Shown: piece after piece, positions 2,316 to 25,256 of the stretch
Position numbering within the stretch: position 1 is the first letter of the stretch
How the letters are laid out: every line of letters starts with the position of its first letter
Source of the DNA: a virus
Virus record (IMG/VR): IMGVR_UViG_3300031857_001009
Coordinates: 1-29,066 of that record
Strand: one strand, 5' to 3'
Length of the DNA stretch: 29,066 nt
Notes under the pieces: generated by a model
Told to the model about the DNA's origin: nothing
Seen by the model: only the letters and a program-made list of their open reading frames with translations
The model's database searches: none
Program-made: the position numbers and the translations under genes

Positions 2316-2342
2316 GGTGAGGGCCTAAGCCCCCACCTTTTT
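2316..2342 (+). terminator. Candidate hairpin terminator, plus-strand orientation
   Basis: On the plus strand GGTGAGGGC, a CTAA loop and GCCCCCACC form a nine-position stem with one A/C mismatch, followed by TTTTTG. On the minus strand the same stem has a G-U pair in place of the mismatch but no U tract after it; it overlaps the stop codon of the gene at 2325. It may block antisense transcription or act as an mRNA stem between two genes. Just beyond, CCCC-GGAA-GGGG on the minus strand could sequester the ribosome-binding site of the 36-residue membrane protein. Confidence 0.35.
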
Positions 2343-2513
2343 GTTTAGTTCTGCGGACAAAATTGCAAAAGCTTTGCTTGCCAGTTTGATGTATTGATCC
2401 ATTAAAACATTGGCTGTTTCAAATTCGCCGGCCTCCATCGCTTGACGAGCGACTGCGTGCGTCGAGATTGCTAGATTGTTGATTGTTGTGTATTCAATGT
2501 GCTTGCTGTTCAT
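2325..2513 (-). CDS. Hypothetical protein, first gene of the left operon
   Basis: A 62-residue protein beginning MNSKHIEYTTINNLAISTHA, with a helical pattern (AVARQAMEAGEFETANVLMD, YIKLASKAFAILSAELNKK) suggestive of a short helical hairpin. It has a GAAAGGGAA ribosome-binding site and is the first gene after the candidate promoter at 2545-2572. Its stop codon lies in the hairpin at 2316-2337. I recognise no family. Confidence 0.65.
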   Translation of the reverse strand: MNSKHIEYTTINNLAISTHAVARQAMEAGEFETANVLMDQYIKLASKAFAILSAELNKKVGA

Positions 2514-2544
2514 CTGGGTTCCCTTTCTCTTTCTTGCCCTGATG

Positions 2545-2572
2545 AGAATAGGTTAGTCCGAGTCAGGGTCAA
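2545..2572 (-). promoter_or_regulatory. Candidate sigma70-like promoter of the left operon
   Basis: On the minus strand TTGACC (2572-2567) is followed after 16 nt by TATTCT (2550-2545), then about 30 nt to the ATG at 2513 with a GAAAGGGAA ribosome-binding site. It sits in the only sizeable noncoding gap between the replication genes and the run of small genes to the left, where a start of transcription is expected. Confidence 0.5.
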
Positions 2573-2616
2573 TAAAAGCCCAAAACTTGCGTTGTTATGT
2601 AATCGTTATATTTCAG

Positions 2617-3021
2617 TTATAGGGCTAAAATCCTGATAATTGCGCCTGTTTCTCGGTCATCGTTATAGAACTTGCGGGCTGCAATCTCGACAACTTGGGA
2701 GTCATCGCCCCAAATAAGGCCTGATTGCCCTATGCCGTCTAAGCAGCCCCGGAGGAGCTTATCGGGCGGTCAGAGATCGGGCGGCACTATTGGCAACGCC
2801 CGATCTTTTATCCTCACAGTCTTAGGTCTTTCTAAAAAGAAATCCACCTCGACCCTAATAGGACCGAGATGGATGTTCTTGTTTGCGAATGGTTGACAAG
2901 CATCTTCAATAGCCGCTCGCCACTTTTTTAGGTTAGCTGATTGAGCCTCGACAATCCTGCCGTTGAATACACGCTTAGACCCTTGAGGGGTCGGTCTGCC
3001 GTAAACATGAAGTTCAATCAC
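2617..3021 (-). pseudogene. rusA: RusA-family Holliday junction resolvase with in-frame TGA
   Basis: From a GTG at 3021 the frame begins MIELHVYGRPTPQGSKRVFN, a typical RusA N-terminus, and stops at TGA (2772-2770) after IVPPDL. The same frame continues without another stop to 2617 and reads PPDKLLRGCLDGIGQSGLIW followed by GDDSQVVEIAARKFY, which matches the conserved RusA core (PDxDKLLRxxLDxL, then W.DD.QV). Total length would be about 134 codons, normal for the family. CCGCCCGAT occurs on both sides of the stop, so a 9-nt or 15-nt insertion may have introduced it. Either resolvase activity is lost, a truncated 83-residue product is made, or the UGA (followed by C, a leaky context) is read through. 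Family assignment is firm; functional status is open. Confidence 0.75.
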
Positions 3022-3030
3022 CCCTCTAGT

Positions 3031-3303
3031 TTAGAAGGGCATTTCCGATCTGGTGATGGTCGGGTTGTTTATGTTGATTGCTGCGACTTGCTTTGGAACA
3101 TTGTCCCGGCCGGTGAAGCTCTCAATCTTGACTGACAGATCACCTGAGACTTCTAGGGTTTCCCCTTCTCTTACCTGTTCCTTAGTCCAGACTGTCACCC
3201 ATTGGGTGCGCTCCTCGCCCTTCTTGTCTTTGTATTTCTCTACTCCCTTGAAACCATATGAGGGAATAAGTCTTGCGACCTCGACTGTTGCTTTTACTCT
3301 CAT
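3031..3303 (-). CDS. Putative single-stranded-DNA-binding-like protein
   Basis: A 90-residue protein beginning MRVKATVEVARLIPSYGFKG. The middle, WVTVWTKEQVREGETLEVSG followed by DLSVKIESFTGRDN, resembles the OB-fold core of SSB proteins, where a 'W..E...G..V.V.G.L.V' pattern precedes a strand with aromatic residues. The usual acidic C-terminal tip is absent, and the protein is shorter than bacterial SSB. The neighbours are replication and resolvase genes. I rate the fold as plausible rather than certain. It overlaps the upstream zinc-binding gene by 4 nt. Confidence 0.45.
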   Translation of the reverse strand: MRVKATVEVARLIPSYGFKGVEKYKDKKGEERTQWVTVWTKEQVREGETLEVSGDLSVKIESFTGRDNVPKQVAAININNPTITRSEMPF

Positions 3304-7591: not shown

Positions 7592-7640
7592 GTCTGTATT
7601 TTCTCCCCTGCCTCCGACATTTATTCCGTAGGCTTCTACA

Positions 7641-7892
7641 ATGGCACATTTTGACCAGAAGCACTATCGCCTTCTCAAGGCTATTCATGCGGCTAATGGC
7701 GTGCCTTGCGAGGATTTCCCTGAGCTTTTCTATCCTGAGGACATTCGAGATGAGACACGCCGAAGGTTGTCTATCGTGATCGCCAAGAGGCTCTGTGACA
7801 CCTGCCCAGTCAAGGCTGAGTGCTTTAGGTATGCGGTGGAATCAGGCCAAAAGTATGGCATTTGGGCTGCAACTTTGCCCTCTGAAAGGTAG
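7641..7892 (+). CDS. whiB: WhiB-family Fe-S transcription factor
   Basis: The only plus-strand protein gene, 83 residues. Four cysteines, C23, C52, C55 and C61 (C-X28-C-X2-C-X5-C), form the WhiB [4Fe-4S] ligand set. The turn motif YGIWAATLP follows, with the GIW core but AA where GG is usual, and the tail is unusually short with little of the basic AT-hook-like C-terminus. WhiB proteins are nearly confined to Actinobacteria and their phages; phage copies such as the TM4 protein can act as dominant negatives on host WhiB function. Divergent from the exonuclease gene, with a 49-nt gap. The ribosome-binding site is weak, and the start could be regulated or leaderless. Confidence 0.9.
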   Translation: MAHFDQKHYRLLKAIHAANGVPCEDFPELFYPEDIRDETRRRLSIVIAKRLCDTCPVKAECFRYAVESGQKYGIWAATLPSER

Positions 7893-7921
7893 TTGACAGG
7901 TATTCAGAAAGTCCCTATGCT
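7893..7921 (+). promoter_or_regulatory. Consensus promoter for the candidate noncoding RNA
   Basis: TTGACA at 7893-7898 directly abuts the whiB stop; 17 nt later is TATGCT (7916-7921). This is the best -35/-10 pair in the window. The predicted start is about 7928, exactly where the first inverted repeat begins. No ORF with a ribosome-binding site follows before the terminator. Confidence 0.7.
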
Positions 7922-7927
7922 AAAAGC

Positions 7928-8033
7928 ACTAATCATGCGTGTTGCTTGACCCGATTAGTCTTGAGTGGACCGCAACGGCTAAAGGTTTTTACCTTAGAAA
8001 ATCCCCTGATGAAAGTCGGGGGTTTTTTCTTTT
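7928..8033 (+). ncRNA. Candidate small noncoding RNA, about 105 nt
   Basis: Between the promoter at 7893-7921 and the T tract there is no usable reading frame; the only ATG gives a 4-codon ORF (MRVA). Three stems are visible. ACTAATC/GATTAGT (7928-7934 with 7953-7959, 18-nt loop) starts at the predicted +1. CTAAAGGT-TTTT-ACCTTAG (7979-7997) has one bulged A. The terminator stem at 8000-8024 follows. A small CCG-CAA-CGG lies between the first two. It resembles no RNA family I know. It could be a regulatory RNA acting on host or phage mRNAs, or a very short leader. Confidence 0.6.
8000..8033 (+). terminator. Terminator, probably bidirectional
   Basis: AATCCCC (8000-8006) pairs with GGGGGTT (8018-8024) with a G-U, closing an inner loop that contains GA/TC pairs, and T tracts follow (8023-8028 and beyond). 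On the minus strand the same stem is followed by ATTTTC, so it can also end the lysis operon, which converges here from the right. It ends the noncoding RNA. Confidence 0.7.
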
Positions 8034-8226
8034 AATCCTTTTTGAATGCGACAGAGGTCAGCAGGCTCAAAAACCCTGCACCCAGAGATACCGAAGCAAG
8101 CCCAGCCCAGTCAATGGCGAATAGGCCAATTGAGCCTGATCCAAGGAATGCGATTGCTGCCTGAGCGACAGTCTTTATAGCCCTCTCGCCAGCGTAATTT
8201 AGGAAGTCCAGACTAAAGATCTTCAT
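8032..8226 (-). CDS. Holin, r1t type
   Basis: A 64-residue membrane protein beginning MKIFSLDFLNYAGERAIKTV. The ERAIKTVAQAAIAFLGSG helix, DWAGLASVSLGAGFLSLLTS second helix and short charged C-terminus (FKKD) match the r1t-type holin pattern (ER..KT.AQ...., ..DW..L...A). Two transmembrane segments. It is the last gene of the lysis operon and ends at the bidirectional terminator. Holin forms the membrane hole that times lysis and lets the M23 enzyme through. Confidence 0.75.
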   Translation of the reverse strand: MKIFSLDFLNYAGERAIKTVAQAAIAFLGSGSIGLFAIDWAGLASVSLGAGFLSLLTSVAFKKD

Positions 8227-8434
8227 GATTGCCCTTTCTAGTTTTTACATCTTCGTAAGTAGCAAAAGCAGTATAAGCGGTCAGGATGATAGAAATCAAA
8301 GCCACTCCGCCGATGATTAGTTCTCGGCTGACTGATGAATCTGCCTCATAAGTAATCGCCCCAAACAGAATCATGAATGCAGACAGGGCAAAAGACAAGT
8401 AGATAAGTCTTCTGCGGTGTTTCCAGCTAGGCAC
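8213..8434 (-). CDS. Two-helix membrane protein, possible second holin or antiholin
   Basis: A 73-residue protein beginning with a basic stretch, MPSWKHRRRL, then two transmembrane helices (IYLSFALSAFMILFGAITYE and LIIGGVALISIILTAYTAFA) and a charged tail (YEDVKTRKGNHEDL). It overlaps the peptidase gene by 8 nt and the r1t-type holin by 14 nt. Its place in the lysis cassette suggests an antiholin or co-holin; the sequence alone does not decide. Confidence 0.65.
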   Translation of the reverse strand: MPSWKHRRRLIYLSFALSAFMILFGAITYEADSSVSRELIIGGVALISIILTAYTAFATYEDVKTRKGNHEDL

Positions 8435-22069: not shown

Positions 22070-22294
22070 TCAGGGGATTCGCTTTTCAGTTGGTTCAATG
22101 ATGCGAGTTTCCTTTATAGCGGCATACGCCGATGCGCCGCTGTTTTTATCGCTGTCAGCTTTGACTGCGACATCTTTGTTGTCTAGCTTCCAAATGGCAT
22201 CAGCCCACTTGTCTGCTAGTGAATAAATCTCTCCAACGCTAGGGTCTCCTGCGATTGCGAGAATGGTTTGCTTGATCTGTTCTTTGGTTGCCAT
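22070..22294 (-). CDS. Hypothetical head-region protein
   Basis: A 74-residue protein, MATKEQIKQTILAIAGDPSV then GEIYSLADKWADAIWKLDNK. The N-terminal helix pattern (I...IL..AG.PS.G.I..LAD..A.A) is common in small actinophage proteins next to the capsid genes. It ends with KETRIIEPTEKRIP. It overlaps the protease stop by 1 nt (TAATG). Its role is unknown; it may assist assembly. Confidence 0.6.
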   Translation of the reverse strand: MATKEQIKQTILAIAGDPSVGEIYSLADKWADAIWKLDNKDVAVKADSDKNSGASAYAAIKETRIIEPTEKRIP

Positions 22295-23817
22295 TAGTTC
22301 CTCTTTAGTAGTAGGTCAAGCTGTTTGCGCTTTAGGTCCAGCAGGTTTGGCTCTTCGGTCTTTTCTTCTTCTACCTGCGTCACAGGGGAAAGAGTGTCAA
22401 CAACCTTCTTGATTAGCTCTGCCTCGGTGTCTGACAAATCAGAACCTTCCTCTAGCTTGAGGACTGCATCAGCCAAAGCGTCAGCGTCAACCTGCGCTCT
22501 AGTTGCAACCTTGTCGAGTGAGCGAACCATTGCCTCGGTTGCAGCGTAAGCAGGAAACGCAACAATGCTTGTCTCGAACAAACGAACACTCTTGAGAGTG
22601 CGCTGTGTCATTTCTTGATTCCATGAGTCTTTGATAACTGAGAAGCCAAAGCTCATCTTGTTTAGGTCTCCTCGGCGGAGTAGCTCAGCCATGTCTCGAC
22701 CATCGGAAGTGTTTGGCAGGCTTGCTTCTACCCTGAGTCCAATCTCGTCCTCGTAGAGCTTCATTGTGCCTGAGCGAGTGGATGCAAGAACTCGACCAGT
22801 GTCGTGATTGACCAACAGCTTGACATCGTTGCGAGAGCGTAGCGAGCGACGGAATGCGCCGGGTTCGATTGTCTCGACAAAGCCACCTAAGTCTTCTGAT
22901 GGGGAGTTGAACTTTGCAGCGTAACCAATAAAGGTCATGCCATCGCCTTCGGCCCTTAGCTCAAAGTCAGCGTCAAAGTTTCTGGTTTCTTGCTTCATGT
23001 TTGCTCTCTCTTGCTCGGCTTCTAGTCTAGTCTTTACACCTTCTGCATAAGCCATCGCTCGTCTCGCAGATCGCTTAGTTGTTCCGCCACCCCATAGAGC
23101 CATTGCAACAACTCCGGGTGATGGGAAGTTTTCTGATGAGGGGTTGGCATCAGGTGAATCTAAATCTCCCAAGTGTCTTGCAATCCAAGCTGCAATCCGA
23201 ACCCACTTGTCGGCGGAGACATTGCCCTCAGCCATTGCTCTAGCTTCTCTGATTGTGCGATCTACTAGACCATCTCCGCCAAGCCCTTCGGAATACCATT
23301 GCAAACCTCTGCGAGCAGATGCTCTCATGTAGGCAGGTGCGGTCAAATCAACCTGACGAACCTCGTCATCGTCTTCATCGTCTTCTGGCTCATCCATTGG
23401 TTCTGGTAGCGGGTCAATCTTTGTCAGCGTTGAGAACTTGTGTCCAACATAGACATCGGTGTCATCCCAGCCACCCTCTACTCTTTGGTAAACCTGAATC
23501 AAAGCGGCAGGGTCATCGGGAGTGCCTGTGATTGTGAATGATGAGTCTGGAACATTTATTGTTCCGTCTCGCTCAATCTGGACAATCTCGCCTCTGGCTC
23601 GACCGCCTGAAGTATTCCAAGAAACATAATCGCCAACCTCAAGCTCAGTTGGTCTTGCTCTTTCTCCACCGGGTTCGATGCCCTCAGAGATTGAGACAGC
23701 GACCATCTGGTCAATGGCATCTTGCTTGGTTGTGTGACAGCCAATTACTTCGCCGTCTTCTTTTACAGTGGCCCAACCTGAGCAGTCAGGTGATTGGTCA
23801 GTTATGAAGTATGGCAT
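22294..23817 (-). CDS. Prohead protease with N-terminal TUDOR-like and additional domain
   Basis: A 507-residue protein. Residues about 60-135 (VGDYVSWNTSGGRARGEIVQ, HKFSTLTKI) look like a DUF2945/HVA1 TUDOR-like domain. Residues about 160-270 (YMRASARRGLQWYSEGLGG, VSADKWVRIAAWIARHLGD) form a second domain seen in phage head proteins. Residues about 275-440 are an HK97 S78 protease: GYAAKFNSPSEDL, LLVNHD with the catalytic His and NKMSFGFSV with the Ser. An internal ATG at 22998 with GAGAGAG ahead would give a 234-residue protease of standard size. The protease matures the capsid by cutting scaffold domains. Confidence 0.8.
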   Translation of the reverse strand: MPYFITDQSPDCSGWATVKEDGEVIGCHTTKQDAIDQMVAVSISEGIEPGGERARPTELEVGDYVSWNTSGGRARGEIVQIERDGTINVPDSSFTITGTPDDPAALIQVYQRVEGGWDDTDVYVGHKFSTLTKIDPLPEPMDEPEDDEDDDEVRQVDLTAPAYMRASARRGLQWYSEGLGGDGLVDRTIREARAMAEGNVSADKWVRIAAWIARHLGDLDSPDANPSSENFPSPGVVAMALWGGGTTKRSARRAMAYAEGVKTRLEAEQERANMKQETRNFDADFELRAEGDGMTFIGYAAKFNSPSEDLGGFVETIEPGAFRRSLRSRNDVKLLVNHDTGRVLASTRSGTMKLYEDEIGLRVEASLPNTSDGRDMAELLRRGDLNKMSFGFSVIKDSWNQEMTQRTLKSVRLFETSIVAFPAYAATEAMVRSLDKVATRAQVDADALADAVLKLEEGSDLSDTEAELIKKVVDTLSPVTQVEEEKTEEPNLLDLKRKQLDLLLKRN

Positions 23818-25256
23818 TAGCCGAGCCTCGCATTCACAGTTATTGTTCCCCCTAGTGCAACCGCTGTTCCGTTTATTGTGATGCCGCCTGCGGTTGTGTT
23901 GATGCTGATCGTCTGAGTTCCAGAGTCATAAACAATCGGCGATGTTGCAGCTACAACTCCAGAAGGTCCTTGCGGGCCAGTCGCTCCGGTTGCACCCTGC
24001 GGTCCAGTTGGGCCTGTCGGTCCTGTCGCTCCCGTAGCTCCAGTTGCTCCGGTTGGTCCAGCAGGTCCAGTTTCGCCTTGAATACCCTGTGGGCCTTGTG
24101 CGCCTGTTGCGCCAGTAGCACCAGTAGGGCCAGCCGGACCAGTATCACCTGTGTCACCTTTATCGCCCTTGTCACCCTTGAGTCCCTGAATACCTTGCTC
24201 CCCCTGAATACCTTGTGATCCTTGCGGTCCGGTTGCGCCAGTAGCTCCTGTTGGACCTGTGTTGCCTGTGTCCCCCTTATCACCCTTATCTCCCTTTAGT
24301 CCTTGAATCCCCTGTGGGCCAGTTGCACCTGTCGCTCCAGTAGCTCCGGTTGCGCCAGTCGCTCCGGTGTCACCCTTGTCACCTTTCGGCAAAACAAAGT
24401 TTAGAGTCTGCGATGGTGCTGTGCCTGTAACTGTTACCGCTGCCGCTGTTCCGCTTGTAACTGTTCCAACCGATAGAACTGTTGGCTGGCCTAAGACTGT
24501 TTCATTGACCCAAAGCTGTGTTGCCGAATCATAAACAAGCGACTGCCCATCGGTTAGACCATTGAACTTGACATTGTGAAGTTCGTCTAGTTCGTATCCG
24601 TTCTGAATGTTGACAAACAGAACACCATTGTTCTGGTTGGCCCTAACGCAATAGCCAATAAAGACTGAGTTGTTTGGTGGGACTGGCTTTGTCGAAGTCA
24701 GACCGCCGGGGACTGTTGGGGATAGCCAAACTGCTGCACCTTCGGTTAGTCCGTTGGTGTTTATGTTTCTGACAAGTCCAAAGCTGGCAGCGAATCCTTT
24801 GCTTCCACCGCTAATTGTCTCTGCCATAACTGCGATGGTTTTTGAACTAGTGACCTCTGAGTTTGCCTGAGCGTATGCGACAAGTTTGTTATTGCCGTCT
24901 GAGCCTGTGATGTAGACAGCTTTGCCCTTAGTGCGTTCAGTGTTATCCGAAGACTTTGCCAAGATAAAAAGCTCTTGCCCGACATTTTGATTGACAGTCG
25001 GGGTCATGCCAAGTTCTAGGGTCTTGTCTGTGTCGTTCCAACCAATTCGACCAACTGCGATAGAGGGAACTGAATTGACATTGAACTGGATGTAAGCAGG
25101 CTCAGCAATTGCGGTTGCGCCGATGATGTTGTCTACAAGTGTGGCTTGGTTCTGATTGACAGTTGCGCTGAATGTTCCGCTGGTGGTTATGGTTGCGGTA
25201 TTCGGTGCGGTGACTTGAACAATGCTTGTGCCACTTGTGACTGTGATTACGCTCAA
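23817..25256 (-). CDS. Collagen-like fibre protein
   Basis: A 479-residue protein with a TTG start overlapping the upstream stop (TTGA). Residues about 1-290 are a beta-rich domain ([37 protein letters not shown]) common in phage tail fibre and adhesin proteins. Residues 292-432 are 47 perfect Gly-X-Y triplets ([10 protein letters not shown]...), predicted to form a collagen-like triple helix. A 47-residue C-terminal domain ([18 protein letters not shown]) follows. Gene position between portal and protease suggests a head or vertex fibre rather than a tail fibre. Confidence 0.8.
23961..24383 (-). repeat. Collagen-encoding repeat tract
   Basis: About 423 nt of imperfect 9-nt repeats encode 47 Gly-X-Y triplets with no interruption. 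Recurrent blocks ([25 protein letters not shown]) occur at least twice, implying expansion by internal duplication. Such tracts recombine readily and vary in length between strains. Confidence 0.85.

Follow-up and report, generated by a model that had tools for sequence, protein, structure and literature searches.

Our comparison of related phage sequences suggests that the stretch between the whiB-like gene and the holin gene of one IMG/VR virus record holds a real small-RNA gene, and that this site is an exchangeable slot for phage regulatory RNAs. The whole record of 29,066 bases was analysed and is called the window hereafter. The gene seems to be self-contained and accessory, with a predicted RNA of about 101 nt and no protein product, and we think it very probable that it is a real RNA gene under selection. 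The explanation that we prefer as a whole, in which an accessory sRNA gene is transcribed by the host polymerase and its product acts in trans on an RNA of the host or of a rival, is given a probability of roughly 0.47.

That this stretch encodes a phage noncoding RNA, as a sequence-only reading of the window had proposed, is now well supported by an RNA body better kept than nearby third codon positions, by a frame-breaking indel, by other phages that carry similarly built RNAs in this slot, and by the lack of an Rfam match at gathering score. The features by which a bacterial trans-acting sRNA gene is recognized were found here, namely a promoter, an intrinsic terminator, no conserved long frame and, in comparison with one diverged copy, a conserved 5' segment.

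The phage and the unit between whiB and holin

Names given by Pfam and PHROGs to window proteins include terminase, portal, prohead protease, major head protein, tape measure, M23 peptidase, r1t holin, RecE-like exonuclease, replication initiator and WhiB; neither an integrase nor a cas family was found among the 22 distinct window proteins scanned, a subset of all its proteins. The terminase is closest, within the phage collection, to that of phiPsal1 of Pontimonas salivibrio (60.6% identity), a phage that its authors term lytic in the available part of their report (PMC6106888). Because of this closest terminase, the lytic character ascribed to phiPsal1 and the lack of an integrase among the scanned proteins, it is likely that the host belongs to Microbacteriaceae and that the phage is virulent. 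The source looks like a freshwater actinophage. As a separate observation, at 22294-23817 and 23817-25256, the prohead protease matches Hva1_TUDOR in its N-terminal part, and a protein with collagen repeats is encoded between head genes.

The whiB-like gene (7641-7892, plus strand; Pfam PF02467, E 7.5e-13) lies back to back with recE, faces the holin end and is directly upstream of the promoter, its stop codon ending one base before the -35 box. It is, as had been noticed earlier, the sole plus-strand gene identified, all ORFs longer than 112 aa being on the minus strand. By eye, TAGGCT at 7629-7634 ends 6 nt ahead of the whiB ATG, and this is also the case in L032, a diverged relative; whiB may therefore have a promoter of its own and be leaderless. 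The convergent holin gene (r1t type; 8032-8226, minus strand; Pfam PF16945, E 1.6e-17) adjoins the RNA cassette with its stop codon.

The promoter (7893-7921, plus strand) consists of TTGACA at 7893-7898, a 17-nt spacer and TATGCT at 7916-7921, and matches the consensus at 10 of 12 positions. The unit is closed by an intrinsic terminator (8003-8028, plus strand) with an 8-bp stem at 8003-8022 and a T6 run at 8023-8028. Both elements had been seen in the sequence-only reading and were confirmed. The predicted RNA, which we call type A, occupies 7928-8028 on the plus strand, its start being placed from the -10 box and its end from the terminator. Both strands of the 29,066 bases were scanned for a -35 box with at least 5/6 matches, at least 10/12 overall and a spacing of 16-18 nt, followed 50-200 nt on by a stem of at least 6 pairs and T5; the unit at 7893-8028 was the one occurrence, and none was found in 150 dinucleotide shuffles.

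The absence of a named RNA family, also stated earlier, was borne out by zero Rfam 15 matches at gathering score in the window; a permissive Rfam search (E up to 10) of 5 loci gave five matches, each at or below 53% of its gathering score. ARAGORN predicted no tRNA or tmRNA gene in the window and 6 loci. Against phage records, blastn found no match for the 1.1-kb region, and at E up to 1 it gave one weak match for type A (E 0.4), three for type C (E 0.5) and none for type B, the two other types being described in the following section. Among 398 host-family genomes (Microbacteriaceae, the family of MAG G001), matches occurred in 1 for A, 5 for B and 0 for C; at 19-32 nt and E 0.004-0.009 per genome they are at chance level over 398 genomes, and an empty answer shows little in this search, which had no known positive. 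We found no report of this RNA or this slot in the open-licence literature searched.

Occupants of the slot in related phages

The slot is filled in 12 records, six with type A (including the window), five with type B and one with type C. Apart from the window, 11 contigs (5 A, 5 B, 1 C) were recovered both by a scan for the terminator flank and by a scan for any T run before the holin end; the two patterns are built on this terminator flank, so that cassettes with other ends would escape them. Type A was present in 5 of 57 WhiB-bearing loci, the holin gene being located in 46 of the 57, these five included. Among holin-bearing contigs, taken as the best 80 of 186, 79 had enough flank; nine of these were filled (5 A, 3 B, 1 C) and the other 70 carried neither the unit nor one of its kind, and the RNA unit is therefore an accessory cassette. 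The contigs with the second WhiB (n=14, L215 being a more distant member at 77%) comprised five with type B, one with type C and eight empty ones. An empty site runs directly from ACC to the holin stop TAGTC, at which the insert is 152 nt long in type B and 174 nt in type C. In many window relatives the stop codons of whiB and holin overlap, and the type A cassette sits between them (by eye).

At the same spot, each of the three types carries TTGACA with a TAxxxT box 17 nt downstream; in type C this box is TAAGTT, a poor -10, and TATAAG is found there at 15 nt. The distance from promoter to holin end is 142 nt in type A (145 nt in L032), 142 nt in type B and 164 nt in type C, and the predicted RNAs are about 101-130 nt long. 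The bodies show no significant similarity, the highest global score, that of B with C, being reached by 17 of 1000 shuffles; common ancestry of the three was not established. Types A and C have related terminators (90% over 31 nt) and GCAACnGC in common (by eye), and the three types may be distant homologues.

Six of the 70 empty holin contigs had a strong hairpin no more than 120 nt from the holin end, and in none of the 70 was such a hairpin followed by T5, indicating that the terminator arrives with the cassette and that the junction does not require it. In phiPsal1, the space between an HTH gene and the holin gene contains only a hairpin and no cassette (by eye).

Several other arrangements were observed on reading these loci. 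In the more distant relatives L043, L044 and L046-L050, a simple GC-rich hairpin directly follows the whiB stop with no cassette (by eye). In a different phage group (L051-L058), a conserved stretch like TTGACATGGAATAATCGTAGGTCTATGAT lies downstream of whiB and is followed by a small ORF (by eye). Within 2321-3031, the type B contig L157 has two whiB-like ORFs in succession; a small ORF on the other strand, with CxxC-like pairs that look Zn-ribbon-like by eye, overlaps the second of them and has a TTG start at the -35 region of the sRNA, and the same small ORF is found at 43-234 of the type C contig L158. Other 18-mer matches (L059, L064) look like chance on reading, and so do ten further gapped-palindrome loci (L066-L075), judged on short local matches only.

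We propose, tentatively and at somewhat less than an even chance for the joint claim, that freshwater actinophages, small and probably virulent, keep a dedicated RNA slot at the whiB-holin junction. Unrelated regulatory RNAs built to one blueprint would be exchanged there in the manner of moron genes, and would serve as weapons or counter-defences specific to a host or a rival. The blueprint in this joint proposal would consist of a perfect -35 box, TAxxxT 17 nt on and a common terminator flank, to which A and C would add a 5' hairpin that may be refolded during transcription. Such a fixed slot with exchangeable RNAs makes the holin end a simple anchor for gathering phage RNAs from metagenomes, and function becomes testable by comparing filled with empty relatives.

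Conservation and predicted folding of the type A RNA

Type A was found in the window, L003, L004, L005, L006 and L032, and nucleotides 1-32 of the RNA are identical in all six copies. L005 and L006 are near-identical to the window. L003 and L004 match the window at 96-100% over the block 7592-8226, which runs from the recE-whiB gap and takes in holin, and at 71-86% in the flanks, a pattern which suggests that whiB, RNA and holin were recently exchanged together among the three; these two records say little about selection, because the block looks recently exchanged.

The estimate of conservation thus comes from L032, which overlaps the window over 2.5 kb. Identical columns number 69/76 (91%) in the RNA body, 32/35 in the promoter and 13/22 in the terminator stem, as compared with 540/638 (85%) in the covered part of recE, 213/252 (85%) in whiB, 145/195 (74%) in holin, 183/208 (88%) in the gene at 8213-8434 and 371/415 (89%) in the M23 gene. 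The third codon positions of seven neighbouring genes, when pooled, are identical at 486/740 (66%), and the RNA body exceeds them (Fisher p 2e-6) as well as holin (p 0.003); it is not significantly above the whole of recE, whiB, the 8213-8434 gene and the M23 gene (p 0.17 to 0.84). In this single comparison the conservation of the RNA is close to that of coding sequence, a notable level for noncoding DNA; local recombination could be an alternative cause of the identity.

A run of 44 nt (7916-7959, plus strand), reaching from the -10 box to GATTAGT and including the 6 nt before +1, is identical in L032 and is a candidate functional core. It is the fourth-longest identical run between the two sequences, and the three longer ones (153, 56 and 47 nt) are all coding.

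The predicted RNA of the window has a fold energy of -32.6 kcal/mol and a z of -3.1 relative to shuffles, the z values of the other copies being -3.7 for L032, -1.3 for type B and -2.3 for type C. The sequence-only reading had drawn a first hairpin from the inverted repeat ACTAATC (7928-7934) and GATTAGT (7953-7959). The repeat (7928-7959, plus strand) is present and does start at the predicted +1; the stem is absent from the minimum-energy fold and has a pair probability of 0.01-0.03 at equilibrium in both the window and L032, and as an equilibrium structure it is doubtful. In folds of successive prefixes it is the best structure for about the first 32-40 nt of the transcript, beyond which it is supplanted by a long-range stem, TGTTGC/GCAACG (7937-7945 with 7972-7979, plus strand). 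It is thus a candidate transient hairpin, probably a minor fold formed early in transcription. In type C, a predicted 9-bp 5' hairpin is likewise best up to about nt 70 and then gives place to a long-range stem, a suggestive parallel between A and C.

The second stem, also proposed earlier, was recovered in the fold prediction as the small hairpin AAGGT-TTTT-ACCTT (7982-7995, plus strand); a loop base differs in L032 with the stem intact. The long-range stem has one consistent change in L032, from U-G to U-A, and the L032 terminator has its own stem with a different loop. Covariation, proposed earlier as a check on the stems, was not seen: no pair was altered on both sides, either among the 31 of type A (2 sequences) or among the 31 of type B (3 sequences); two and three distinct rows are too few diverged copies for this check, and type C is one sequence. 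In these same sets of 2 and 3 sequences none of the predicted consensus pairs of A and B is broken.

Possible function and relation to known systems

In the mechanism that we prefer, host RNA polymerase with the housekeeping sigma factor would read the unit from its own promoter, as the boxes imply, and would halt at its own terminator just short of the holin gene, so that an RNA of about 101 nt but no protein is made. Lineages differ in which RNA of this build occupies the slot, and in some the slot is empty. The RNA would act in trans, most likely through its 5' part (about nt 1-32) pairing with a host or competing-phage RNA, and turnover of the slot RNAs would be consistent with targets that vary between hosts. 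The sequence-only reading had suggested a regulatory RNA, a sponge or an immunity-type transcript, each of which may prove right. Nothing was found that explains type A as a protein gene, a tRNA, a known RNA family or a CRISPR mimic. A trans-acting RNA directed at a host or rival target appears to be the most economical reading; base pairing as its mode of action is a possibility to which we give a little less than even odds. Actinobacteria are generally held to lack Hfq, and pairing would accordingly be expected to proceed without it.

The phage itself offered no clear target: among the start regions of 44 window genes (best 8 of 44) the best duplex had z -2.2 by plain duplex energies without accessibility and with mononucleotide shuffles, and an exact antisense match of at least 10 nt to minus-strand mRNAs was not found outside the RNA's own locus. 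Type A shares 14 11-mers with 106 related viral loci against a shuffle mean of 8.1, 4 12-mers against 2.3 and no 14-mer; this sharing is only somewhat above the shuffle mean and includes no convincing target.

Of the alternatives, the one that we weigh most, though as unlikely, is that the RNA binds a protein, mimicking a host or phage RNA and titrating, for example, a nuclease or a regulator, or acting as a mimic of CRISPR repeats of the Racr kind. A compact, stably folded, accessory RNA with its own promoter would suit such a role. CRISPR repeats were taken from 13 arrays in 14 Cas1 regions of Microbacteriaceae, a group that may not be the host's. The middle part of type B (L157 3025-3161, L155 2308-2444) weakly resembles type I-E-like repeats from this set, its best score in 26 comparisons being matched in 2.6% of shuffles, with no correction for the three RNAs. 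Against this stand the lack of such likeness in type A (59% of shuffles do as well as the best of its 26 comparisons), for which CRISPR mimicry was rejected, and in type C (18%), the presence of Cas1 in 14 of 199 Microbacteriaceae genomes searched, and the absence of a tRNA or of an Rfam family at gathering score. Mimicry by B and C as judged with mononucleotide shuffles (z up to 4.9 and 4.1) mostly disappeared with dinucleotide shuffles.

The remaining alternatives concern the DNA, the whiB message and a peptide. Promoter and inverted repeat might be a regulated site, or the promoter might interfere with late transcripts that approach the holin end, and the RNA would then be idle; that the identical run covers the -10 box and the 6 nt before +1, and that the repeat begins at +1, would fit this. 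The half-sites are, however, 25 bp apart, which we take as wide for one dimer, the predicted transcript ends before the holin gene, nothing like this repeat is seen by eye at +1 of type B, and the small hairpin keeps its stem in L032 despite a loop-base change, so that we regard an element acting at the DNA level as quite improbable. To much the same degree we doubt that the unit is a plain whiB 3' untranslated region with a terminator insulating convergent operons. It does directly follow the whiB stop codon, some relatives have a simple GC-rich hairpin after whiB, as described above (L043, L044, L046-L050), and the terminator stem is as poorly kept in L032 (13/22 columns) as that of a plain terminator would be; yet TTGACA with TAxxxT 17 nt on recurs in three sequences that are not significantly alike, 64 of the 70 empty holin contigs have no strong hairpin there, and the well-kept part lies upstream of the terminator. 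A small protein gene is very improbable. The earlier statement that only a 4-codon frame exists did not hold, as a 61-codon GTG frame spans 7939-8124; both it and the 4-codon frame (7935-7949) are open in the window, and the latter is intact in L032. The long frame, however, crosses the terminator and is ended after 8 codons in L032 by a 1-nt insertion within the conserved RNA, and the 4-codon frame has no ribosome-binding site in the predicted 7-nt leader (by eye).

Turning to known systems, the phage regulatory RNAs in the available parts of the papers compared are mainly those of prophages in a few model bacteria, and actinophage RNAs are there without a known role. L5, D29 and StarStuff (PMC5712189) and WC1 (PMC10986025) are described in those parts as making abundant noncoding intergenic transcripts with no known function, and the right-end region as toxic to M. 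smegmatis; the right-end transcripts come from the early lytic promoter over about 500 bp, and the accessible text mentions no swappable slot (PMC5712189, PMC10986025). The window unit had no significant match in the phage collection. Racrs are likewise small phage RNAs behind their own promoter at an intergenic site and, according to the available sections, resemble CRISPR repeats (PMC10651486). The window unit has a predicted promoter, is intergenic and has no cas genes among the 22 scanned proteins; type A, however, is unlike the 13 Microbacteriaceae repeats compared.

The nearest parallels, as far as the accessible portions of the papers describe them, are the Pas sRNAs (PMC13192938) and the sRNAs at the moron site of lambdoid prophages (PMC4104026); what looks different here is that one site is occupied by RNAs which replace one another, in phages that are small and probably virulent. 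The Pas sRNAs, found in phages and prophages of E. coli and known to take part in many RNA-RNA interactions, are accessory, lie in several cases beside the holin/lysozyme operon and vary in presence between strains, whereas host and phages are different here and the comparison is one of description (PMC13192938, available part). AgvB and AsxR are anti-sRNAs of lambdoid prophages, AgvB pairing with the host sRNA GcvB, and are small RNAs at a fixed moron insertion site between phage genes that differ between phages; they are 51-60 nt long, Hfq-bound and from E. coli prophages, in contrast to about 101-130 nt (predicted) in phages of actinobacteria here, and are homologous with conserved 3' regions and variable 5' ends, unlike the slot types without significant similarity (PMC4104026, from its accessible sections). 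The slot resembles theirs as an insertion site in phage genomes that varies between relatives, and the type A RNA differs in being identical at its 5' end and variable towards the terminator.
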